Source: a virus
Virus record (IMG/VR): IMGVR_UViG_3300025853_000433
Coordinates: 1 to 30,088 of that record
Direction: 5' to 3' (one strand)
Length of the DNA stretch: 30,088 nt
Shown: positions 13,678 to 29,483 of the stretch, piece by piece
Numbering within the stretch: the first letter of the stretch is position 1
Layout: each line of letters begins with the position of its first letter
The notes under the pieces: generated by a model
Database searches by the model: none
Told to the model about the DNA's origin: nothing
Seen by the model: the letters and a program-made list of their open reading frames with translations, nothing else
Position numbers and translations under genes: made by a program

Positions 13678-13684
13678 TATTTAG
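13678..13684 (-). promoter_or_regulatory. Possible late promoter (CTAAATA)
   Basis: The minus strand reads CTAAATAAATA here, overlapping the stop of the protease gene and ending 17 bp before the ATG of the 1243-aa adhesin. The match to TATAAATA is imperfect and the spacing is shorter than at the other candidate late promoters (28-31 bp), so this is a weaker call. An AAGGA ribosome binding site lies between it and the ATG. Confidence 0.35.
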
Positions 13685-15924
13685 AATTTTAAATAAATTC
13701 TTAATGGTACTTGATATTGACTAAGTTCAGTTGAAGCAGATGGTTGATCAGAAGCAGTAATATATTCAGTGGTTGCGATAATATTTCCAGTTATACTAGT
13801 TTCTCTTATTCTAAATCTAAAAATTTCATTACTTTCTTGAAGAGAATCATCTGAAAGAGTTAATTGTACAGTACCAATACCATTTATAATTGAAAAAGAA
13901 CCACTCAGTGAACCTATATTAAAATCCCCAGGTTGAATATTTGAAGATGGTTCTGCTTCTATAGAATAATAATATGTACCATCATTAGAAGAATTTGTAT
14001 TTACTGTGATAATTATATCATCACCCTCATAAACATATGTCTTATTTGGATAAGCTTGAAAATTAGCTGGTGTTGATCCGTCAGTATATGGATTATATGC
14101 AATTTTTTTTGGTGCTCCTCTCATATTGTAGAGACCAGTCCAATAAGATGTAGTTGTATCGTCTGAAATAGGATCTAAGTATTCATTTGCTGTAAGTAAA
14201 GTAGATCCTGTCACACTCAACCAACTTTTAACTTGTGCTGATGTTGCTGTTGGATTTTCTTCCATATAAAGAGCAATTAATCCTGATATTACTGGCGCGG
14301 CAGCACTTGTTCCACCAAACCTAGAATCATAAAATCTATTGTCATCAACTCTTTGATATGTGGCATAAGTAGGTGATCCATTTTTTCCTGGTGCCAATGT
14401 TTCATCAGCAGGAGACCATATATCAATCCCCGAACCATTACTTGAATAGGACGCCTTCCTTTCTTTAGAATTAGATTCAATATACTCATCCATCGCACCA
14501 ACACATATTACAGGATGAAAATCATTTATTGAATCATATCCAATGCCTTGAGGATGTAACCAATCACGATGATTACATGGCACTGTGCCGGATGGAAATT
14601 CTGGTCTTGGATCTGTAGTACCAAAAAAAGAATCACTCATATAATTTAGTTTATCAGGATCTCCGGCACCAATGCCAAGTCTTTGATTACAATTGCCAGC
14701 AGAAGCAACAAATATAACTCCAGAATCTAATAATTCATTTCCTGCTGTTTCTGTAGAATTGCTTCTTGATGAAGTGGACCAAGACTTGTATGCCCCATTT
14801 ATTTGATTAACTAATCCCTCTTTCATTGCCGTAATTTGATTAGATACTGAATCTGATCCAACAAATGTGCCCGTTAATCCACGAAATTTATATTGAACAG
14901 TGCTATTAGTAAAAAATCCTGCTAGATATCCCCAACTTCCATTAACTACTGTTGGATTTTTCACTCCAGTAGATGGATTTGTTGGTTTATTTTGATGCCA
15001 AATTTTTATTAAATCATGACTTGCTTCGACAGAAAGGTTAGTGGAAGATACAATTACTGATATATTCCATATATTTGCTTCAAAAGAAAGACCCATATTT
15101 TTTCCTGCTGATAATCCAGCAACAGCAGTCCCATGACCATCGCTTATTGTGTTACTTCCATCCAACGAAGAACCAAGAGCATTACTTTCTGTATATAATG
15201 ATGGTATCGATACTGTTCCTATTGTAGAAAATCCTGGAGAACGATTTGATGAATTTGACCACCAATTTTTTGCCGATGCTTCCGTAATTCCTGTTCTTCC
15301 ATCCGGTTTAGTAACTGTATATCCATTAGTAACAAAATAAGATGGATCAATATAATAAGGTCCATCTAAAACAATATCACGAACTCTTGATGTTCCATCA
15401 GATTTTAAAAATTCTGGATGATATTGAAGAACTCCATCATCTTGAATGACTATATCAACATTTGCTCCTGTTTTTGTATAAGTTAAATTTCCAATTTGTG
15501 TAGGTGGATTGCCAGTCGTGCTCCAAAAAGTTGTATTATCCTGCAATTCCAATCTTTTTGATGCCCAACTTATCCTATTCAATTCAGCATTAGTTGGATT
15601 AGTTAAAGGAGGTGCATGAAAATCCAAATCTCTATAAATTTTAACACTAGAAGAAAATCTAGTTGCATTTGGAATTGGTTTTGGGTATGAATCAATATTA
15701 TCTGAAGGGGAAAGTTCAATCCATTCTATTTTTTCATGTTTTTTTAATTCTTCCACTTCATTATCAGTTAATTCATAAGTAGATCTTGTAGGACTATGTG
15801 CCTTATCGTCAGAGCAACATACTATTCTATCCGGAATACAATCACAATGCGATTCCTGACATAAAAGATTATGAATTTCTTGCCAATCTTGAGGTCTTTT
15901 AACTTTTAAAGTATATTTCTGCAT
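13681..15924 (-). CDS. Subtilisin-like serine protease (peptidase family S8) in the fibre cassette
   Basis: A 747-aa subtilase with a full set of expected active-site residues: D162 in VIQDDGV, H264 in DGHGTAVAG, oxyanion N411 in ASAGN and S540 in GGTSAAAPV. Residues about 1-75 resemble an I9-type propeptide (STYELTDNEVEELKKHEKIEWIEL) but carry five cysteines within residues 22-37. No secretion signal is present, which suits a virion-bound or intracellular enzyme rather than an exported one. Residues about 635-730 look like a Calx-beta/fibronectin-like beta-domain that may anchor it to the tail. The ATG directly abuts the stop of the repeat fibre gene. Likely roles are cleavage of host surface proteins or maturation of neighbouring fibres. 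Which of the two is unknown. Confidence 0.9.
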   Translation of the reverse strand: MQKYTLKVKRPQDWQEIHNLLCQESHCDCIPDRIVCCSDDKAHSPTRSTYELTDNEVEELKKHEKIEWIELSPSDNIDSYPKPIPNATRFSSSVKIYRDLDFHAPPLTNPTNAELNRISWASKRLELQDNTTFWSTTGNPPTQIGNLTYTKTGANVDIVIQDDGVLQYHPEFLKSDGTSRVRDIVLDGPYYIDPSYFVTNGYTVTKPDGRTGITEASAKNWWSNSSNRSPGFSTIGTVSIPSLYTESNALGSSLDGSNTISDGHGTAVAGLSAGKNMGLSFEANIWNISVIVSSTNLSVEASHDLIKIWHQNKPTNPSTGVKNPTVVNGSWGYLAGFFTNSTVQYKFRGLTGTFVGSDSVSNQITAMKEGLVNQINGAYKSWSTSSRSNSTETAGNELLDSGVIFVASAGNCNQRLGIGAGDPDKLNYMSDSFFGTTDPRPEFPSGTVPCNHRDWLHPQGIGYDSINDFHPVICVGAMDEYIESNSKERKASYSSNGSGIDIWSPADETLAPGKNGSPTYATYQRVDDNRFYDSRFGGTSAAAPVISGLIALYMEENPTATSAQVKSWLSVTGSTLLTANEYLDPISDDTTTSYWTGLYNMRGAPKKIAYNPYTDGSTPANFQAYPNKTYVYEGDDIIITVNTNSSNDGTYYYSIEAEPSSNIQPGDFNIGSLSGSFSIINGIGTVQLTLSDDSLQESNEIFRFRIRETSITGNIIATTEYITASDQPSASTELSQYQVPLRIYLKF

Positions 15925-19241: not shown

Positions 19242-22139
19242 TCAGTTTATACAATCTACGATTCGAATAACGTCTTTTCTTGTAAAATCTTGTTTCTCTG
19301 TAATGATTTTTTTTCCTCGTAATGTTTTAATGAGACCTGGAACATCATTATCTACAATTTGTGCCAAAGTAATAGAATCTAAATTAAAATCTACTATTAA
19401 AGAATCAGTAGTGTCGGCAGTCGCGGGAGTTCCACCAATTCCTCCTACAGTTACAGGAGTTCCACCAGTTCCACCAGCAGTTACAGGAGTTCCACCAGTT
19501 CCACCAGCAGTTACAGGAGTTCCACCAGTTCCACCAGCAGTTACAGGAGTTCCACCAGTTCCACCAGCAGTTACAGGAGTTCCACCAGTTCCACCAGCAG
19601 TTACAGGAGTTCCACCAGTTCCACCAGCAGTTACAGGAATTCCACCAGTTCCACCAGCAGTTACAGGAATTCCACCAGCAGTTACAGGAGTTCCACCAGC
19701 AGTTACAGGAGTTCCACCAATTCCTCCTACAGTTACAGGAGTTCCACCAGCAGTTACAGGAGTTCCACCAATTCCTCCTACAGTTACAGGAGTTCCACCA
19801 GTTCCACCAGCAATTACAGGAGTTCCTCCAGCAGTTGTAGGAGTTTCAGTTAATTCATCTGGTTGAGTTGGATCAAAATCTTGAATTGGTAAAAATTCCA
19901 ATTCCGGTTCTATTATTGCACCATTACCTGTTAAACTTTCCACGGAAATTTCAGGATACTCTTGAATGCCACAAACATTAGTTAAAACATCAATACCTAT
20001 AATTTGCCCATATTCTGTCATTTTTACACTTGCCTCAAGATTGGGAATATCAGGAGAAATTTTAATATTATCATTTATAGTATATCCAATTCCTGTACTT
20101 TTAATTCTGAACCCCTTTAAACAAACAACATAGTCTTTTTCAGCAGGAAGAGAATTCTGAGGGATATTTGATAAAAGTTCAAATTCAGTTCTACCATCTC
20201 TAGATGGAACTACTGGAGTGGATGTCATCACAATATTTATTACGTGCCCATCATCATCTATTTCACAATATCCACTAGTAAAAGTATCTTCACAACTGTC
20301 AATAAAAGATACAAACGGAGGTCTACTATAATTATTTCCACCATTAGATAAACTAACACCAATTACTCTACCAATATTATCTACAACAACTTCTCCAGTT
20401 GCACCAATACCACCTCCACCAAAAATTTCAACTCTTGGTGGTCCACATTCAAATAAATTTGAATCACATTTCAATGTGCTTGATGGGGAATCTCCCAACT
20501 TTTCACCAAAAATCTCAAAACCATCAATCCACCCAACAGCACCCTCAACCACTTGATCAGATTTTGGTGCAGGTAAGAACTTATTAAACGCATCAATTTG
20601 TGCTTGAGATGGTCCTGCCCAAGGACTTGCCTTAAACGCTTTAATTTCTGGGCAGTTTGGTTTTGCACATAAAAATGACTCAAATCCAAGTATAAAATCA
20701 AGTGCCTCAAATACACTTCCAACAATTCCAGAAAATCCTTTTAATAAATCATTTATATTATTTAAAATAGGACCGATAGTCTTATCTATTGTTGCTGCTA
20801 AATTATTGATTAACGCATTTGTAAACTGTTCAGCAACACAAAACGGAACATTGATGACTTTTCCAACCAACTCAAAAAGAAAGTCTGTAATTAAATTAGG
20901 GATAGATTTTACAATATTTTTAAGACTACAAAATAAATTATCAACTATAATCTGAATGATGGAATTTTTAATAGATTTTGTGATTGTGGGGAGAATCTTA
21001 TCGAGAAGGTCTTGAATTCCAGTTCTAATCTTATCAATTAAAAAATCTCGCAATCTAGTTACTAAAGTTTTTAATACTGCACCAATTATTTTAGATGTTT
21101 GTCTTATTAAACTAACAATATTTTGCAATTTATTAATAGAACCATTTACATATAAATCAGTATATTTTTTAATTCCTTTTATAATTATAAAAAATTTTTT
21201 AAGTGCTGTATTAATTTTCGATATTTCAGATGTTCCACACGGATTCGGTAATGTCCTTTCTTTATTATAAGTTTGTACTGCTTCACCAAGAGCAACAGAT
21301 TTAGCAAATTTTTCACAATCGGGGGTATTATCTAAATTAAACCCCTTTGCAGTTTGACGAGAATTACATTCTGTATTTTCTTTTATTAATTTTGCTTCAT
21401 AAAGTCTATCCAATTCACTTTTAATCTGTATATATCTTTTTCTTTCTTCATCATCCCATAAATCAGAACTTTTTTTATTTAATTCTTCTATTTCTATATT
21501 TAATTCATTAATTCTATCAAGAATTACATCTTCTCTTAAACTAGAATATATATTTTCAATAAAGATGGGTTCGTCAGGAACAACAATAGGTTCTTCTTCA
21601 TTTGTTGTTATTTCAGTTACGGGGTCTTTTACTTCGGATGTTTTTGTAATTGACACATCAATTGAAGATTTGTATATAGAATCTCCAGTAACACCAAAAT
21701 TATTGATATTTTCTACAAAAACATGATTTTTATATGTTATCGCGTCAGGTCTACCCTGCCCACCAAGAGAATCAAAACCAGTAGATAATACTAAATTTCT
21801 TGCTATGATTGAACCATATCCATCATCTTGTATTTTAGATTGAAGTTCTGAAGGGTTAAGTGCTAATCTATATGCTTCTTCTGCTATTAATAATTGCTGA
21901 TTGCTGAATGGTTGATCAATAGAATTTCTACTATCTCTCGTTGGTTGATATTGATTTTTAGCATAAACAATATCATAAATGTCAGTACTTGTAGTATTAA
22001 AATTAGCACCATTTCTTATCGCTTCTCTTCGATTTAAAACGGATCTAATTACAAGTGCTTGTCCAACAACACCTTCTCCCCTTGCCTCTGCTAGTGCCAA
22101 TCTTTTTAAAAGTTCTTTATCTTGAGAAGAAATAGACAT
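19242..22139 (-). CDS. Large hub/tail protein with N-terminal SleB-type cell-wall hydrolase domain (965 aa)
   Basis: Residues about 8-150 match the SleB/Hydrolase_2 cell-wall hydrolase pattern: LALAEARGEGVVGQALVIRS with the probable catalytic E18, then VLNRRE, and later QPFSNQQL and TYKNHVFVE. This family cleaves peptidoglycan. A helical region with coiled-coil and amphipathic segments spans about 205-500 (for example IIGAVLKTLVTRLRDFLIDKI). Beta modules with GGNNYSRPPFVSF follow, then a Gly-rich repeat linker (about 765-905), and a helical C-terminus (DFTRKDVIRIVDCIN). ATG start, 37 bp after the OB-fold gene, preceded by a promoter-like motif. Its position between OB-fold and beta-helix genes suggests it replaces the lysozyme domain of gp5. 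Confidence 0.75.
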   Translation of the reverse strand: MSISSQDKELLKRLALAEARGEGVVGQALVIRSVLNRREAIRNGANFNTTSTDIYDIVYAKNQYQPTRDSRNSIDQPFSNQQLLIAEEAYRLALNPSELQSKIQDDGYGSIIARNLVLSTGFDSLGGQGRPDAITYKNHVFVENINNFGVTGDSIYKSSIDVSITKTSEVKDPVTEITTNEEEPIVVPDEPIFIENIYSSLREDVILDRINELNIEIEELNKKSSDLWDDEERKRYIQIKSELDRLYEAKLIKENTECNSRQTAKGFNLDNTPDCEKFAKSVALGEAVQTYNKERTLPNPCGTSEISKINTALKKFFIIIKGIKKYTDLYVNGSINKLQNIVSLIRQTSKIIGAVLKTLVTRLRDFLIDKIRTGIQDLLDKILPTITKSIKNSIIQIIVDNLFCSLKNIVKSIPNLITDFLFELVGKVINVPFCVAEQFTNALINNLAATIDKTIGPILNNINDLLKGFSGIVGSVFEALDFILGFESFLCAKPNCPEIKAFKASPWAGPSQAQIDAFNKFLPAPKSDQVVEGAVGWIDGFEIFGEKLGDSPSSTLKCDSNLFECGPPRVEIFGGGGIGATGEVVVDNIGRVIGVSLSNGGNNYSRPPFVSFIDSCEDTFTSGYCEIDDDGHVINIVMTSTPVVPSRDGRTEFELLSNIPQNSLPAEKDYVVCLKGFRIKSTGIGYTINDNIKISPDIPNLEASVKMTEYGQIIGIDVLTNVCGIQEYPEISVESLTGNGAIIEPELEFLPIQDFDPTQPDELTETPTTAGGTPVIAGGTGGTPVTVGGIGGTPVTAGGTPVTVGGIGGTPVTAGGTPVTAGGIPVTAGGTGGIPVTAGGTGGTPVTAGGTGGTPVTAGGTGGTPVTAGGTGGTPVTAGGTGGTPVTAGGTGGTPVTVGGIGGTPATADTTDSLIVDFNLDSITLAQIVDNDVPGLIKTLRGKKIITEKQDFTRKDVIRIVDCIN
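19420..19845 (-). repeat. Gly-rich 30-bp tandem repeats (GGTGGTPVTA type)
   Basis: About 14 units encode GGTPVTA with or without an extra GGT/GGI, giving 30-bp and 21-bp steps. Many units are identical, suggesting recent slippage. They form a flexible linker near the C-terminus of the SleB-domain protein. A long opposite-strand frame across the repeat is a by-product of its composition. Confidence 0.88.
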
Positions 22140-22176: not shown

Positions 22177-22680
22177 TTAAATAGTAAATTTTGAATCTTT
22201 AAATTCTTTATTAGAAATTTCTAATAAACCTTTAGGAGACTTTGCCCCTATGAGACGATGTGGACCAGATACGATTCCCCCAGTATAAGAAGAAACTCTT
22301 TTTCCAAGAGTCGTTCCATTTATAGAATCTATAAGTTCATACTCACTATCATTATTTCCCAAAATTTGTGTAATAACTGGTATTTGACACTCCTCATCAA
22401 GAAAAAATCCAATTACCCATTCTCCACCCCATATACCAGAGGATTGAAAGTTACGATTTCCGGCAGTAGTTGGTTTTGCTACAATTGCCCATGGTAAAAG
22501 TGAATCTTCAACTTCTGTTGAATCTTCATTACCAGACATTGGATGCATTCCTGGTATCCTAACTTTAACTCTATCACCATGACTATCAGACCAAGAAGCT
22601 TTTTTTATTTGTTGATTTTGATTAGGAGGAACTTGACCTAAAAACCATTTATTATTACCAATTGCGTATCCTAGCGCCAT
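22177..22680 (-). CDS. 5: Baseplate hub OB-fold protein, gp5 N-terminal domain type (167 aa)
   Basis: The sequence has the hallmarks of the gp5/VgrG OB-fold: GYAIGNNKWFLGQVPP, then HGDRVKVRIPGMHP, then LLPWAIV and GEWVIGFFLDEECQIPVITQILG. It lacks both the lysozyme and the beta-helix of T4 gp5 (575 aa). I place the start at the ATG at 22680, 1 bp after the stop of the gp27-like gene. An in-frame TTG at 22722 would add 14 residues overlapping that gene and is less likely. In T4, gp5 binds the gp27 trimer, and here the gp27-like gene is immediately upstream, which supports the assignment. The last ~30 residues (GPHRLIGAKSPKGLLEIS) may lead into the spike. The gp5 label refers to the OB part only. 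Confidence 0.72.
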   Translation of the reverse strand: MALGYAIGNNKWFLGQVPPNQNQQIKKASWSDSHGDRVKVRIPGMHPMSGNEDSTEVEDSLLPWAIVAKPTTAGNRNFQSSGIWGGEWVIGFFLDEECQIPVITQILGNNDSEYELIDSINGTTLGKRVSSYTGGIVSGPHRLIGAKSPKGLLEISNKEFKDSKFTI

Positions 22681-22681
22681 T

Positions 22682-23971
22682 TTAGTTTTTATTAGTATAT
22701 AGTCCGTAAGTGTCGCGGACAAGTGTCATTGATGTAAAAGATCTTTTAGTATCATAGTGGTGACACAAATCTAATATTAAATATTTACCACTCTGAACTG
22801 GATCGGAACCTTGTGCTTTATCACCAATTGTAATTGTCTCAAAATTGCAAAGTATAACATCACCAGCATTAAGTCCTGGATTACAAGGAACTTGAATTTT
22901 AACGACTTGTGTAAATAAAAAATTATATCTCATCTGAGAAAGACCTTGCCAATCTTTTGGTTCTCCCGATGTATTTTTTTCCGAAACTTCTGGAGATAAT
23001 GCCCCAACATCTTTAATACTATAAAGAATTCTGCTATATTGTGTATTTTCTAGTTTTGAAATATTTTTTTTACCCAAAGTTTTTTTCATATCAATAGTGA
23101 GTGTATATTCTTCTTCTTTAAATGTTCTGGGATTAAAAATTACATGACGACTTGAATATACTCCCGATTTTAAAGCATTAATGAGATTCTGATTTTTATC
23201 AACTCTAAAGCTCAGTATTTTGTAATTTGTAGGTGCATTAATACTCGATATATTTGCACCAGAATAAAAATATGGAAAATCTTTGTTTATCGGTTCTTTG
23301 GATATAAGTTCATCAATTGATTTAAAATAGTATTTTTCCTTAGTTTCATAAAAGAAAAATCCTGGATTCCCAATTAGTGGAACTGATTTTGAAGCGAGTA
23401 TCATAATAATATCAAAAGGAGATTTCATATTTCCAATAAATGGATACTTATTAGAAGTCTCTTCAATATCAATTCTATTATCTGGTATTTTTAATATGTC
23501 TTTGGTTATTGACTTAACCGATTGTGAAATTTTCGCGAATTTAGAATAATTTTTCTTTACATGAGTTTCTTGATTTGTTATTGCCGTTTTTGATATTAAA
23601 CTCAATATAATAGATTCTCTTTGAGACTCTTGATTTGGATTCACAGCACCATTAACATACAATGGAGTATTAGAAAAATCTAATGTTCCGAGAGAATTTG
23701 AAATTTTAAACCTAACCTTTTCTGTACCATCTCCCATAAGAGGAAGAGCATTATAAACACCACCAATCCTTTCTTGAGAATCATATTCACTACTATATTT
23801 CAAAGAAGATCCTGTATCAACAAATGACATGGTAGCAGTAATGTTTGGAGACAATAAACTCTCATAATAATCAAAAGTAGTCGTCTTTCCATCTAATCTA
23901 ATAACTTTTTCATCCTTTATAATCTCAATTAACTCATAAATTGAAGGTAATGATGCAGATGTATTTGCCAT
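22682..23971 (-). CDS. 27: Baseplate hub protein, gp27-like (429 aa)
   Basis: Probable hub protein linking tail tube and spike. The N-terminal region (IYELIEIIKDEKVIRLDGK, then SLLSPNITATMSFVDTGSS) resembles the first tube-like domain of gp27/gpD-type hubs. The middle (IGNMKSPFDIIMILASKSVP, then GFFFYETKEKYYFKSIDELI) is typical of the hub fold. The C-terminal part has the second barrel-like segment (VVKIQVPCNPGLNAGDVILCNF, then SGKYLILDLCHHYD). T4 gp27 is 391 aa, so the length fits. ATG start, 3 bp after the M23 gene. Order matches T4, where gene 27 follows 26 and 51. No enzyme motif is visible. Confidence 0.75.
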   Translation of the reverse strand: MANTSASLPSIYELIEIIKDEKVIRLDGKTTTFDYYESLLSPNITATMSFVDTGSSLKYSSEYDSQERIGGVYNALPLMGDGTEKVRFKISNSLGTLDFSNTPLYVNGAVNPNQESQRESIILSLISKTAITNQETHVKKNYSKFAKISQSVKSITKDILKIPDNRIDIEETSNKYPFIGNMKSPFDIIMILASKSVPLIGNPGFFFYETKEKYYFKSIDELISKEPINKDFPYFYSGANISSINAPTNYKILSFRVDKNQNLINALKSGVYSSRHVIFNPRTFKEEEYTLTIDMKKTLGKKNISKLENTQYSRILYSIKDVGALSPEVSEKNTSGEPKDWQGLSQMRYNFLFTQVVKIQVPCNPGLNAGDVILCNFETITIGDKAQGSDPVQSGKYLILDLCHHYDTKRSFTSMTLVRDTYGLYTNKN

Positions 23972-23974
23972 TTA

Positions 23975-25735
23975 TTAAGTCCTCCATATTTCAGGAAGTT
24001 GTGGTTGTGTTGACGAAAAAGATCTTTGATTGTTTGAAACTGGTATTGGCATCATATATGGAACATATTGTATAGTATTTACTCTCTGAAAGGCAATAGT
24101 TGTTGTTGCTTCATCGTCCATCGGTTGGTTTATAGTAGCAATTTTTTCCTTAGGAGTAGATGCTATAGGAGAAATAACTCCACCTTGACCATCAGAAGTT
24201 TTATTTGGTTGAAAAGAACCAAGTCTTAATAATTTTGAGTAGTTCTTTGGATTACCAGATCCACCATATTCACCCGATCCTTTCCGAGTATCTGCCTCAA
24301 AATGGAGGTGTGGACCTGTTGATGTTCCTGCACCTCTAGATCCTGCCGCTCCACCAGTTTTTCCTAGCATTTCATTTGCTTTAAAAGTTCCACTATTCTT
24401 TATAATTTCTGATAAGTGTGCCAAACGAATTTGAACTCCAGAATTTGGCAACCACGCATCAATCATATAACCATATCCACCATACTCACCAGCAGCAACA
24501 ATTTCACCGTCCTCAGTAAGAGAAACTGGTGTTCCTTGCGATGTTCCAATATCAATACCACCATGAAGTTTTCCTGCTTGTCCCGTAACTGGATGTGTTC
24601 TATACCCATAGTCACTTGTTATGGGATAACCAGAAATTTTATTTCCAGTAGTTTCCCCTGCAGAGGAAACAGATCCATCTGGATAATCAGTCCCTGAAGT
24701 TGAGGAGATTTCCTCACTTTCAAATTTTTCTCTCTCCGCAGAAGTCCACTGCCTTTGAGTAAATTTTCCAGTTTCTGTATTTACAAATCCTTCTTTACCA
24801 TCTCTTTTCTCAAGTTTCATTTTTGTTGATGCTTTTTTAAGTCCTAGAATATCTCTAAATTTATCGATAGCACCTTTGAGTAAATCGATTGCTCCACCAA
24901 ATGGACCTAATTTTTCTTTTATCTTATCAAGTAGACCACCTTTTCCTTGGATATTCTGGATACCATCATCAAATCTTTTCTTGTCAACATCAAGTTGACC
25001 TTGATTTATGTCATCACTAAAGAAAGACATAATAACATTAAATCCACTTTGAATTGGTGTAAGAAAATTAACAATGCTATCAATTACTTCCTTAACTTTT
25101 TCTATGATTTTTGGTAATGCATTAACAGCAATTCCAAGTAATATCGTTTGAGCAAATTTTATTATCCTATCAAATACACTACCAGCAAAAGGATTTTTTA
25201 TATTTTTAAAATTGGGTTTAGAATCTTCTGGAGATTTTGTTCCTAATCTTTTTTCTGCTCTTTGTAAATTTGCTTCACTTTGTTGAGACCTTTCATTTCT
25301 TCTTGTATTTTTTTGTTGCTTATCATATTGTTTATTTGATTTAACCAAAAACCTATGAATATTAGTTACGTTTATCTTTAGTTTTTCAACCTCAGATTTT
25401 GAATTTGGTGCAGATTTAATTTTTATTTTATTTGTAGTTCCTGTGAGAGTTGGAGTTAATCCTAATCCCCCTCCACTCATCGAACTATATTCTAATTTTT
25501 TCTCTTGCTGATTACCTTCTGAAGAAATCAGTCCAGATTCCTTAGACAATTTACCCTTTACCTTTTCCTTTACCTTTTTTTTAATCTTATTCTTTGTGGC
25601 AGATTTTGCCTTTCTTACAGCAAGTTTTTTTGCACTTCTGGCAGATGCTCTAGCAGCTGCTCTTGCTCCAGTTGCCGCAGACCTACCTACAGTTGCTCCT
25701 ACTCTTGCTAATCCTGCTAATATCTGTACTGCCAT
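23975..25735 (-). CDS. Tail protein with C-terminal M23 (LytM-type) endopeptidase domain (586 aa)
   Basis: Residues about 372-500 form an M23 zinc endopeptidase domain that would cleave peptidoglycan cross-links. The expected residues are present: H391 and D395 (HGGID), H440 (LAHLS), and H476 and H478 (PHLHFE). The N-terminus is Ala/Arg/Lys-rich (residues 1-65, very basic). A charged helical region follows, then a hydrophobic segment at about 182-215 (FDRIIKFAQTILLGIAVNAL) that closely resembles a segment of the 689-aa neighbour. Residues 215-300 are amphipathic. No signal peptide, so delivery is presumably with the tail. ATG start, 4 bp after the 689-aa gene. The layout resembles a tape-measure or hub-associated protein with an enzymatic domain. 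Confidence 0.85.
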   Translation of the reverse strand: MAVQILAGLARVGATVGRSAATGARAAARASARSAKKLAVRKAKSATKNKIKKKVKEKVKGKLSKESGLISSEGNQQEKKLEYSSMSGGGLGLTPTLTGTTNKIKIKSAPNSKSEVEKLKINVTNIHRFLVKSNKQYDKQQKNTRRNERSQQSEANLQRAEKRLGTKSPEDSKPNFKNIKNPFAGSVFDRIIKFAQTILLGIAVNALPKIIEKVKEVIDSIVNFLTPIQSGFNVIMSFFSDDINQGQLDVDKKRFDDGIQNIQGKGGLLDKIKEKLGPFGGAIDLLKGAIDKFRDILGLKKASTKMKLEKRDGKEGFVNTETGKFTQRQWTSAEREKFESEEISSTSGTDYPDGSVSSAGETTGNKISGYPITSDYGYRTHPVTGQAGKLHGGIDIGTSQGTPVSLTEDGEIVAAGEYGGYGYMIDAWLPNSGVQIRLAHLSEIIKNSGTFKANEMLGKTGGAAGSRGAGTSTGPHLHFEADTRKGSGEYGGSGNPKNYSKLLRLGSFQPNKTSDGQGGVISPIASTPKEKIATINQPMDDEATTTIAFQRVNTIQYVPYMMPIPVSNNQRSFSSTQPQLPEIWRT

Positions 25736-25739
25736 AATA

Positions 25740-27809
25740 TTACACCGTTATTCCATATAACATTGGGCTCAATTGACGATATGGATCTGCCATATTTGTA
25801 CTGGAAATATCAGGAACTTCAGTTTCTTCTCCACCACCACTCATGTTTGGTAATGGTGGTGGTGGTAACTGATTTGTAATTGGAGGAAAATTAATCATAT
25901 TAATACCACCACGACCTCTTCTACCAGAAGAAATCATTTGATATATTTTTTCCGTCCTCATATTATTAACGATAGATCCATTAATATTTGGAGAGAACAG
26001 TTCTGGTCCCCCTTCACCCACAAGATATGGTTTTCCTGCGGCAACAGGACCACCCTTTTCTCTTGCTTCAATATTTAATGGAACAATCTGAGTTATTTTT
26101 TCTGCATATTTTGCTCTAATTTCTTTTTCTGCTGCAGACTTATTTTCATTAAACTTATTAACCTCATCTTGAGAAGAAAATCCACTCAACCCGGAATTTT
26201 TATCCATGTCTGAGTGCTTTTTTCTAATCTCGCTCCTCATATCATCTCTCATACTATTAAGTTGTTCTCTCTTTGCCAAAACATCTGATGCAAGTTTTTT
26301 CTCAGCATCAGTCATTTCAACTTCTTTTCTTCCTATTCCAAGGAATCCACCCTCTCTCTTTTTGCCGTCTAGATCAAGTCCGGCATCTCTTAATTTTTGA
26401 TCAAGCACATCATGTGCTTCACTATATTCGGATCCACCTGTGGTAGCATTTCTTACAGCATTAAATCCTGCTTCTAATCCTTTATATGCAAGAACTATAC
26501 CACCAACAATAGCCAATGCTTTTAATAATAGTGGAGCAATTGGAATAAGAACTGGTGCTAGCAATGATAATGTGCCGATTATTGTAGTAATGACTCCAAC
26601 TAAAGGCGCCAGTGCAATAGCACCAATTGCAGCAACTGCCCATCCCCAATTTTCTTTAATCCAACTAAACCATCCCTTCACTTTTTCCATATTTTCTGGA
26701 TTCTTCAACCATCCAAATATGGCATTACCTGCAATACCCAAAGCAAGAGTTTGCACAAAATCCATAATACGACCAAACATACCTTTTACAGGTGCCACAG
26801 TTTCCTCTGCTTTTTCACCTACAGAACTTTTTATGTTTTTGGAAGATTTTTCTAACTGACTTTCTTCTATGCCAAGTTTTGCTCTAGAAGAACTTCTCTT
26901 TGCTCTATCAGATTTTGCCTTTTCTTCTCTTGATCTAAGTGCAGAAGATCTCATCAGTTCTTTCTGAATTAGAACAAGAATTTGATTAGTTTCTTTTAAA
27001 GATTTTTCTATATCACTTTTACCTTCACCTTGACCAAAAGATTTATTTTTCTCGTTCTTTTTTTCAATTTTCTCAATTACTTTTTCCGTTTTTATAAGTC
27101 TTTCATTTATTTTTCCAATTAAAGTTTTTTCAATTTTCTCATTTACTTTTTCCGTTTTTGTAAGTCTTTCATTTATTTTTCCAATTAAAGTTTTTTCAAT
27201 TTTCTCAATTACTTTTTCCGTTTTTATAAGTCTTTCATTTATTTTTCCAATTAAAGTTTTTTCAATTTTCTTAATTACTTTTTCCGTTTTTATAAATCTT
27301 TCATTTATTTTTCCAATTAAAGTTTTTTGAATTTTCTTAATTACTTTTTCCGTTTTTATAAATCTTTCATTTATTTTTTCATTTACTTTTTCCGTTTTTA
27401 TAAGTCTTTCATTTATTTTTTCATTTACTTTTTCCGTTTTTATAAGTCTTTCATTTATTTTTCCAATTAAAGTTTTTTCAATTTTCTCAATTACTTTTTC
27501 CGTTTTTATAAGTCTTTCATTTATTTTTCCATTTACTTTTTCCGTTTTTATAAATCTTTCATTTATTTTTCCATTTACTTTAGATTGAAATACTAAACTT
27601 TTTTCTATATCAAAAAGTTTTTTTTCTATAAAACCAATTCGAGTAAATAATTTTCTAATATGAGCAAAAATTTTGCCCATGGTTTTATGGATATCTTTTA
27701 ATGGAGATTTAATACTAAGATCACCTTTTTTAATAAAAGATGTAGATTTTATTTTAGTGTTATTTAATTTTAATCTATTACTAGATGGTAAATTTAAATT
27801 AGATTCCAC
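25740..27809 (-). CDS. Tape-measure candidate with coiled-coil repeats and hydrophobic segments (689 aa)
   Basis: No direct family match is clear. Residues 81-256 are nine coiled-coil repeats of the KINERLIKTEKV type. Residues about 341-367 (RIMDFVQTLALGIAGNAIFGW) and 386-445 (WAVAAIGAIALAPLVGVITT onward) are strongly hydrophobic, like the membrane-active regions of tape-measure proteins. The C-terminus has a Pro-rich tail (PPITNQLPPPPLPN). It lies right after the gp26/gp51 frameshift pair, where tape-measure genes usually sit, and close to where gene 29 lies in T4 (gp29 is 590 aa). The start is a GTG overlapping the end of the gp51-like gene by 11 bp; the first in-frame ATG would be at residue 44. 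The role is inferred from shape and position. Confidence 0.6.
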   Translation of the reverse strand: MESNLNLPSSNRLKLNNTKIKSTSFIKKGDLSIKSPLKDIHKTMGKIFAHIRKLFTRIGFIEKKLFDIEKSLVFQSKVNGKINERFIKTEKVNGKINERLIKTEKVIEKIEKTLIGKINERLIKTEKVNEKINERLIKTEKVNEKINERFIKTEKVIKKIQKTLIGKINERFIKTEKVIKKIEKTLIGKINERLIKTEKVIEKIEKTLIGKINERLTKTEKVNEKIEKTLIGKINERLIKTEKVIEKIEKKNEKNKSFGQGEGKSDIEKSLKETNQILVLIQKELMRSSALRSREEKAKSDRAKRSSSRAKLGIEESQLEKSSKNIKSSVGEKAEETVAPVKGMFGRIMDFVQTLALGIAGNAIFGWLKNPENMEKVKGWFSWIKENWGWAVAAIGAIALAPLVGVITTIIGTLSLLAPVLIPIAPLLLKALAIVGGIVLAYKGLEAGFNAVRNATTGGSEYSEAHDVLDQKLRDAGLDLDGKKREGGFLGIGRKEVEMTDAEKKLASDVLAKREQLNSMRDDMRSEIRKKHSDMDKNSGLSGFSSQDEVNKFNENKSAAEKEIRAKYAEKITQIVPLNIEAREKGGPVAAGKPYLVGEGGPELFSPNINGSIVNNMRTEKIYQMISSGRRGRGGINMINFPPITNQLPPPPLPNMSGGGEETEVPDISSTNMADPYRQLSPMLYGITV
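27042..27569 (-). repeat. Nine coiled-coil repeat units (22- and 14-residue forms)
   Basis: Units begin KINER(L/F)IKTEKV. Six are about 22 residues (66 bp, with IEKIEKTLIG) and three are 14 residues (42 bp). The DNA of adjacent units is almost identical, so copy number could change by recombination. The 14-residue form equals two heptads and the 22-residue form two hendecads. Confidence 0.88.
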
Positions 27810-27978
27810 TTTGTTGCTGCGCTTTTAGATTTTCTTCTTCAATATATTGTTGAAGTAATGAAATATATATTTCTCTTTCCCATGGAATCATATTTTCTAA
27901 CTCCGTCAATGAATATTTATGATGCTGTAGTAATGCAAAATTAATTTTATAGTATGACTCAAGAGTTGTGTGAGCCAT
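27799..27978 (-). CDS. 51: gp51-like hub assembly protein; probable T part of a frameshifted tail chaperone (59 aa)
   Basis: A short helical protein (YYKINFALLQHHKYSLTELENMIPWEREIYISLLQQYIEEEN). The gp51 label rests mainly on its position after gp26; T4 gp51 is 249 aa, so length does not match. The ATG at 27978 lies 2 bp after the gp26 stop, and the frame is also open upstream through the end of gp26. A -1 frameshift at the slippery site in gp26 would enter this frame with no stop in between, giving a fusion of about 301 aa. The sequence style (short helix-turn, TELENMIPWERE) resembles the second ORF of G/GT-type tail chaperones. It may be made both ways, or only as the fusion. No convincing ribosome binding site precedes the ATG. 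Confidence 0.7.
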   Translation of the reverse strand: MAHTTLESYYKINFALLQHHKYSLTELENMIPWEREIYISLLQQYIEEENLKAQQQSGI

Positions 27979-27993
27979 ACTCAACTGAAAAAA
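27951..27993 (-). promoter_or_regulatory. -1 programmed ribosomal frameshift signal (gp26 to gp51)
   Basis: On the minus strand, bases 27993-27987 read T TTT TTC in the phase of gp26 (codons GCT TTT TTC), a canonical X XXY YYZ heptamer. Five bases later begins an 11-bp stem: AGTATGGCTCA (27981-27971) pairs with TGAGTCATACT (27961-27951), with one G-U pair and a 9-nt loop. A -1 slip places the ribosome in the frame of the 59-aa ORF, reading Phe-Phe-Gln-Leu-Ser-Met-Ala-His, and bypasses the gp26 TGA at 27983-27981. Heptamer, spacer length, stem and target frame all agree. I infer function; none of this has been measured. Confidence 0.8.
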
Positions 27994-28703
27994 GCTGCTA
28001 ATCCCTCAAGAACAACTTCAGATTCAACGCCAGTATTTGGATTCTTTACTGCAATCGTATGAGAGAGTTTTGGCATTGTGGTGAAGAACTTCTCAATTTG
28101 TTTGAACTGTTTTGTGTTCATTTGCTCAATAAATTCATCAAGTTCTTTCTTAGAAAAATCTGCTGCTTCCCAAGTTTCTTCCTCATTATAGATCATATCA
28201 ATACACGATGTAATCATTGAGAGTGATTGTCCAACATTACTTAGAACCTCCGCAGTTTCAAAATTGCTCTCAACAAACTGATCTATTGAAGGATAACGAA
28301 GTTTCATAGAAAGATTATCATCCAGTTTGATAATATTCTTATGTCCTCTAGTTTTTTGAATTTTGATTGAATCAATATCAATCGTCATTTCAACCTGTGT
28401 TTCATTATCATCAGGGCAGGTAACATTTACATCAACAGTTTCTCCAACAGACCTTGCTCTGACATTTAGGAACAAATATTCAATATCAAAAGTTGCAAGA
28501 GATTCTACCTTGACATTCTCAGTAAGAATACAATCTGAAAGAATTTGAACGATAGAATTTGTAATATCCTTCATATTTTCAGTTTCCATTGCCATAATTA
28601 AAATCTTTTCTTCTCTTACAAGAAAAGGTCTGTATTTGATTTTTTTTCCCGTTGAAGGCACTGTCAACTCATAGGTTGGGGTATTAATCTTAGGTAATGG
28701 CAT
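27981..28703 (-). CDS. 26: gp26-type baseplate hub assembly protein (240 aa)
   Basis: The sequence MPLPKINTPTYELTVPSTGK, then YRPFLVREEKILIMAME, resembles the T4 gp26/T4_baseplate family in marine T4-like phages (T4 gp26 is 208 aa). A beta-sandwich-like middle (VDVNVTCPDDNETQVEMTID) and a helical C-terminus (KKELDEFIEQMNTKQFKQIEKFF) follow. I start it at the ATG at 28703; a TTG at 28715 would add four residues but the ATG gives the family-like N-terminus. An exact late promoter lies 28 bp upstream. The last three codons carry a -1 slippery heptamer, so this is also the G part of a probable G/GT chaperone pair. In T4, gene 26 is needed for hub assembly. Confidence 0.82.
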   Translation of the reverse strand: MPLPKINTPTYELTVPSTGKKIKYRPFLVREEKILIMAMETENMKDITNSIVQILSDCILTENVKVESLATFDIEYLFLNVRARSVGETVDVNVTCPDDNETQVEMTIDIDSIKIQKTRGHKNIIKLDDNLSMKLRYPSIDQFVESNFETAEVLSNVGQSLSMITSCIDMIYNEEETWEAADFSKKELDEFIEQMNTKQFKQIEKFFTTMPKLSHTIAVKNPNTGVESEVVLEGLAAFFS

Positions 28704-28739: not shown

Positions 28740-29483
28740 TCAGATAATACGACCTTGTTCATATATAAAAGGAAGTGGTTCCTGTTTAGTACCTTCACCT
28801 TGACGAAGTTGTGAATTTTTTTGCTCACCTGAGGAAAAAGTTTCAGTTCTATCTACAACATATCTATCATAAACAAAAGATACACCAACTTTTAAAATAT
28901 CAGCACCACCATAAGAAACAGGAACTGCGTTTAATAGCTTTGGAAATGCATTGAGGAATGAATATTTAATCGTTTTTGTATCTGTGTTTCTTTCAAATTT
29001 TATAATAGATAAAGACTGACACTTATAAGTATCTGGATATCTCATTCTACGATAGTAATTTGCATCCATAATATTTTGCGAATTTCCACTAGAAATATAA
29101 TCAATCCACCCCTCAAAAAACCTCAAATTGTTATAATTATTATCAACGTAAAATGTACAATCAAATGGTGCATAGACTCTACTATGAGCAAATTCCTCAG
29201 ATATGCCCATAAAATTACCTTTTACTTCAGAAGTTGCTAAAGTTGATCCGGGTAAAGATGCTTCTGAGCACAAAAGACCAGAACTTCTAGAAATAAAATC
29301 TAAGTTAACATTAAAATTATCTTTCAAATGTTTTATAAGTTTTTTATTTGGAGAAAAAGTTCCAAGAGAAGAAAAATCTAATTGATAATAATTTGTTTGT
29401 GATAAATTCCCAAACAAAAGTTGAGGATCTACAACATTATCTTCACCACCTTTATTATTTCTACTAAATTTTTGTATTGGCAC
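28740..29483 (-). CDS. Tail-tube-like baseplate protein (gp48/gp54 type, 247 aa)
   Basis: The fold signature is that of a tail-tube relative: SSGLLCSEASLPGSTLATSE, then CTFYVDNNYNNLRFFEGWIDYI, then a strand-rich segment (TIKYSFLNAFPKLLNAVPVSYGGAD) ending in VSFVYDRYVV. In T4, gp54 and gp48 are tube-like proteins that start the tail tube on the hub (320 and 364 aa), and this protein is shorter than both. It is the first leftward gene, beside gp26. I cannot tell gp48 from gp54 by eye. The start is a GTG at 29483; no ATG lies near the N-terminus. A CTAAATAA motif lies 29 bp upstream. Confidence 0.65.
   Translation of the reverse strand: MPIQKFSRNNKGGEDNVVDPQLLFGNLSQTNYYQLDFSSLGTFSPNKKLIKHLKDNFNVNLDFISRSSGLLCSEASLPGSTLATSEVKGNFMGISEEFAHSRVYAPFDCTFYVDNNYNNLRFFEGWIDYISSGNSQNIMDANYYRRMRYPDTYKCQSLSIIKFERNTDTKTIKYSFLNAFPKLLNAVPVSYGGADILKVGVSFVYDRYVVDRTETFSSGEQKNSQLRQGEGTKQEPLPFIYEQGRII

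Follow-up and report, generated by a model that had tools for sequence, protein, structure and literature searches.

Do the gp26 homologue of a marine T4-like virus and the small open reading frame (ORF) behind it encode two separate proteins, or are they the short and long forms of a single tail assembly chaperone, the latter produced by -1 ribosomal frameshifting? This question arises from a 30,088-nucleotide stretch of viral DNA (hereafter, the window), for which a first-pass annotation had proposed a complete frameshift signal joining gp26 to a gp51-like ORF, in the layout of the G and GT tail chaperones. We find the second answer very probable. The features on which the argument turns are as follows:

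28740..29483, minus strand: tail tube protein gene, just upstream of gp26 (PF23849, E 6.2e-21; phrog_45, E 7.4e-37)
27981..28703, minus strand: gp26 homologue, 240 aa, putative short tail assembly chaperone (G / TAC-N; PF12322, phrog_150)
27987..27993, minus strand: slippery heptamer T_TTT_TTC in the gp26 phase (kept in relatives as T_TTT_TT(C/T))
27951..27981, minus strand: putative stimulatory stem-loop, 11 bp with a 9-nt loop, 5 nt past the heptamer (fold of L001; stems in relatives)
27799..27987, minus strand: region encoding the T (TAC-C) domain in the -1 frame, with a 59-aa ORF inside it (phrog_634; C-terminal end of phrog_150)
25740..27809, minus strand: 689-aa gene immediately downstream, probably for the tape measure protein (weak profile matches and position)

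The gp26 junction and its neighbourhood

Read on the minus strand, the gp26 homologue ends ...GCT TTT TTC AGT TGA, with the stop codon at 27983-27981, and the heptamer T TTT TTC is indeed present in the gp26 phase at 27993-27987. It is followed by the spacer AGTTG (27986-27982) and by a stem-loop, in which the 5' arm AGTATGGCTCA (27981-27971) and the 3' arm TGAGTCATACT (27961-27951) form an 11-bp stem containing a single internal G-U pair and close the loop CACAACTCT (27970-27962). Spacer, stem, and loop thus lie where the first-pass annotation had placed them, and exactly the same fold was obtained (-13.8 kcal/mol, z -2.83) for locus L001, which carries an identical copy of this sequence. From about 28005 onward, the -1 frame has no stop until 27801-27799 and, as proposed, enters the 59-aa ORF without interruption. 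The predicted fusion comprises 239 aa of gp26 and 62 aa of the -1 frame (QLS plus the 59-aa ORF), 301 aa in total.

The gp26 heptamer on its own is weak evidence, and its conservation is decisive. Canonical X_XXY_YYZ heptamers are common in the AT-rich window (98 in phase per 9,682 codons); in-phase U_UUU_UUY occurs twice, and only the copy in gp26 is near a gene end. A T_TTA_AAA heptamer (TTTAAAA) is also found four codons before the end of a 747-aa gene (13681-15924); it was rejected as a frameshift site, as its -1 extension spans only about three codons, and is probably due to chance.

The gp26 homologue is readily identified by PF12322 (T4_baseplate; E 4.9e-74, 249 bits against a curated cut-off of 24.5 bits) and phrog_150 (E 3.2e-81). 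The 59-aa ORF is recognized by phrog_634 (E 3.5e-28), a profile labelled 'baseplate hub assembly catalyst', and by the C-terminal end of phrog_150 (E 4.9e-07), which is long enough to accommodate fused members. The 689-aa gene overlaps the T ORF by 11 nt and is probably the tape measure, judging from its position and from weak matches (E 1.9e-5 to 1.7e-4) to three profiles of tape measure proteins, phrog_934, phrog_1538, and phrog_5062; HTVC008M has a gene labelled 'putative tail tape measure' in the equivalent place. In its order of tail tube, gp26, 59-aa ORF, and tape-measure-like gene, the window follows the placement typical of G/GT genes, and it shares with them a slippery site in phase shortly before the first ORF ends and a second ORF that is open in the shifted frame. 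Further along the cluster, the 586-aa gene after the tape-measure candidate (23975-25735) encodes a domain of the M23 peptidases (PF01551, E 1.9e-13), which suggests a tail-borne cell-wall enzyme. Two neighbouring genes (22177-22722 and 19242-22139) match different parts of phrog_1922, a gp5-type tail lysozyme (segments 18-120 and 184-579 of 932), as if one hub lysozyme gene had been split.

Structural comparison points in the same direction. The best PDB matches to an AlphaFold model of gp26 (pLDDT 86) were the HK97 tail assembly chaperone (2ob9, Z 7.8) and YqbN (3klu, Z 7.2), with the next matches at 4.9 and 2.8; residues 1-86 superimpose on 2ob9 with 84 residues aligned and an rmsd of 3.8. 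Foldseek alone gave no significant match and, because its E-values are not significant, the structural resemblance is supportive only. A PDB sequence search with gp26 and T4 gp51 as queries returned no match. In a VIA-align second look at the PDB, a T4-like gp51 model had no match above Z 4.8 and none to a tail assembly chaperone; this second look re-ranks Foldseek candidates only, and the null result for gp51 is not counted against the chaperone reading.

Conservation of the slip site and the stem

The first-pass annotation had staked its proposal on conservation of the heptamer, its phase, and the stem in related phages, and that conservation was found. All 79 near-relative loci on viral contigs with a complete junction (79-100% amino-acid identity) keep the heptamer, the phase, and an uninterrupted -1 frame, even though their zero-frame gp26 stop (TGA, TAG, or TAA) and the codon preceding the heptamer vary. 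A wider set, which combines close relatives with S-PM2-, S-SM2-, HTVC008M-, KVP40-, phiM12-, and Aeromonas-type sequences, spans cyanophages, pelagiphages, KVP40-like, Aeromonas, and rhizobial phages. In-phase T_TTT_TTY is present at 142 of its 143 unique junctions (T_TTT_TTC in 134, T_TTT_TTT in 8), counts that do not represent independent events, the sequences being related by descent. The heptamer is retained even in phages whose gp26 is only ~25-40% identical, and conservation among relatives rules out a chance heptamer in an AT-rich genome.

Could the site simply reflect a conserved Phe-Phe pair in the protein? Internal Phe-Phe pairs in the same genes are most often TTC-TTT (TTCTTT 66, TTTTTC 31, TTTTTT 30, TTCTTC 15; TTT-TTY 43%), so protein conservation cannot explain the site. 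Moreover, the codon before TTT-TTY is AGT, TCT, AAT, GCT, GAT, or GGT (Ser, Asn, Ala, Asp, or Gly), switching amino acid while its final T is invariant, and T4-type gp26 keeps Phe-Phe in codons with no preceding T. Conservation of Phe-Phe alone was therefore ruled out.

Poly-T slip sites followed by an open -1 frame were also found in Xanthomonas X1, Cronobacter S13, Agrobacterium Atu_ph04, Rhizobium RHph_Y68 (TTTTTTG), and the single-cell marine viruses AG-345-L05 and AG-345-D19. As a separate observation, the Ackermannviridae and the Vibrio D528 group retain gp26 and, in the -1 frame, the T domain, without T_TTT_TTY; CTT TTC, GTT TTC, or GTT TTT replaces the heptamer in Vibrio D528 (L086), Serratia 3M (L200), and Vibrio SD25 (L202).

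The region downstream of the heptamer is predicted to fold more stably than expected in most relatives, with a mean folding z of -2.76 over 88 unique 52-nt sequences and z < -1 in 77 of them. Stems of the window type are 91% paired at their position (20 sequences) versus 26-40% when slid. The G-U pair becomes A-U in some relatives, and formal covariation is weak because the stem scarcely varies. The compensatory change that the first-pass annotation had called for appears in the S-PM2-type stem, unrelated in sequence to that of the window, where C-G is replaced by U-A in 4 of 12 sequences. Other clades have stems of unrelated sequence at the same position after the heptamer. Downstream folding revealed no clear stem in L127, L134, L141, L160, and Aeromonas Ahp1 despite their heptamers, and thus the stem is not essential everywhere. 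At L065, an insertion directly past the gp26 stop (~2770) duplicates the stem and the beginning of the T domain; the -1 frame is longer there, and a G-C pair replaces G-U in the stem.

The long form might also arise from RNA polymerase slippage on the T-run instead of ribosomal slippage. The homopolymer comprises six T in the window and eight in HTVC008M; for slippage during transcription six T make a short run, and a stem at ribosomal spacing past a heptamer of fixed phase is a ribosomal signature. We give this origin almost no credence.

The second ORF as a probable fused domain

More serious is the possibility that the 59-aa ORF is a gene in its own right, with translation by termination-reinitiation at an ATG at 27978, the heptamer and stem being incidental. 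This ATG lies 2 nt past the gp26 stop in the window and in most close relatives, KVP40-like phages have TAATG-type overlaps, and GenBank records annotate separate genes. Yet the first 16 codons of the -1 frame contain no ATG, GTG, or TTG in 21 of 142 relatives, a -1 stop directly abuts the slippery pair in 13, and at least six combine both features, so that in several relatives the second domain is reachable only by slippage. In HTVC008M, the annotated gp51 start sits ~50 nt beyond the gp26 stop, within the conserved domain. Separate genes would also leave the invariant T ahead of TTT-TTY unexplained, and in the window the ATG at 27978 is buried within the stem. We therefore judge a separate gene very unlikely as the general explanation, while the ATG so close to the gp26 stop makes a separate small product possible in the window.

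The original proposal of a G/GT pair upstream of the tape measure, made by frameshifting, is supported in that heptamer, phase, and stem are conserved, the genes lie in the G/GT order, and gp26 resembles the HK97 chaperone in structure. We infer that slippage occurs, at some rate, as follows. Most ribosomes would terminate at the gp26 TGA, yielding the 240-aa short chaperone. A minority would be stalled by the stem-loop, whereupon both Phe tRNAs would slip back one base on T_TTT_TTC and translation would proceed in the -1 frame to the 301-aa long form, which includes the T domain. If the lambda gpG/gpGT model applies here, the tape measure protein would be coated by the short form, and the long form, the rarer of the two, would bring in tail tube subunits through its T domain.

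Known chaperones and the separate genes of T4

The slippery heptamer of lambda is GGGAAAG, as opposed to T_TTT_TTC in the window phage, whose G domain is of the gp26 type and larger (240 aa); no direct sequence similarity between the two has been shown. Lambda likewise makes a short chaperone and a -1 long form from genes located between those for the tail tube and the tape measure (Xu, Hendrix and Duda 2004). The TAC locus of Vandenendeviridae and Andersonviridae, which encodes a myovirus chaperone like that of the window but in another phage family, has an invariant GTTTTT, a poly-T -1 frameshift, and a -1 frame open family-wide (PMC12846349).

The first-pass annotation knew of no standard description of this kind for the group. 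However, the central idea of a frameshifted T4-like tail chaperone is already published, since Vladimirov, Gautam and Davidson (2022, Virology 566:9-15) identified the T4-like chaperone genes. Those genes belong to the same family as the window's, in which gp26 is the short form and the long form bears a gp51-type C-terminal domain. In the passages citing that work, PMC12846349 refers to poly-T sequences that signal a -1 frameshift in T4-like TAC-N genes, and PRFect (PMC10885494) to T4-like phages with a short TAC gene and a fused long gene. As late as 2016, a review still counted T4 among the exceptions to G-T frameshifting (PMC5009743). The present analysis adds detail for the window's clade, evidence from start codons and adjacent stops, and a comparison of stems.

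T4 itself is arranged differently: gene 25 follows gp26, and gp51 is divergently transcribed. The abstract by Vladimirov, Gautam and Davidson reportedly describes the frameshift as conserved across several T4-like groups and names genes 26 and 51 as those that T4 uses. T4-type gp26 ends in TTC-TTT or similar, and T4 lacks a slippery site; among phages with a separate gp51 (T4, Karamvirus), gp26 ends mostly in non-slippery TTC-containing codons. L188 is the sole separate-gene relative with TTT-TTT, which is not preceded by T and is accompanied by a -1 stop.

T4 gp26 is homologous to the window gp26 along its whole length. Residues 1-201 of T4 gp51 (249 aa) also match PF12322 (E 3.9e-52), its C-terminus matches the family of the 59-aa ORF, with phrog_634 matching both, and an HMM built from virtual fusion products could be aligned to T4 gp51 straight through the junction (i-E 7.6e-12, search of 13 sequences). 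T4 gp51 is thus a gp26-like domain plus a T domain, and T4 therefore encodes the short and fused long forms as two separate genes, in contrast to the predicted frameshift of the window phage. The window locus belongs to the T4 gp26/gp51 (PF12322) family by its gp26 profile match and by a predicted long form combining a gp26-like part with a gp51-type C-terminal domain. The pairing of 'gp26 and gp51' in the first-pass annotation needs one correction: gp51 of the window's group is the C-terminal T domain only, whereas T4 gp51 is the complete long form.

A broader proposal, which we consider speculative and rather unlikely as a whole, is that the marine T4-like clades (the window's, HTVC008M-like pelagiphages, and cyanophages) form an uncatalogued extension of T4-like frameshifting, with stems rebuilt at the same place independently of sequence, and that T4 gp26 and gp51 arose by duplication and fusion of an ancestral frameshift locus.

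T4 gp26 and gp51 have long been described as hub proteins of unclear function (PMC3004832), and the frameshift reading supplies a testable account of both. Most cyanophage and pelagiphage records still call the first gene or the pair 'baseplate hub' and 'hub assembly catalyst', and some give the second ORF no annotation at all. Reading the two ORFs as one frameshifted chaperone corrects the annotation across hundreds of genomes and points to the downstream gene as the tape measure.
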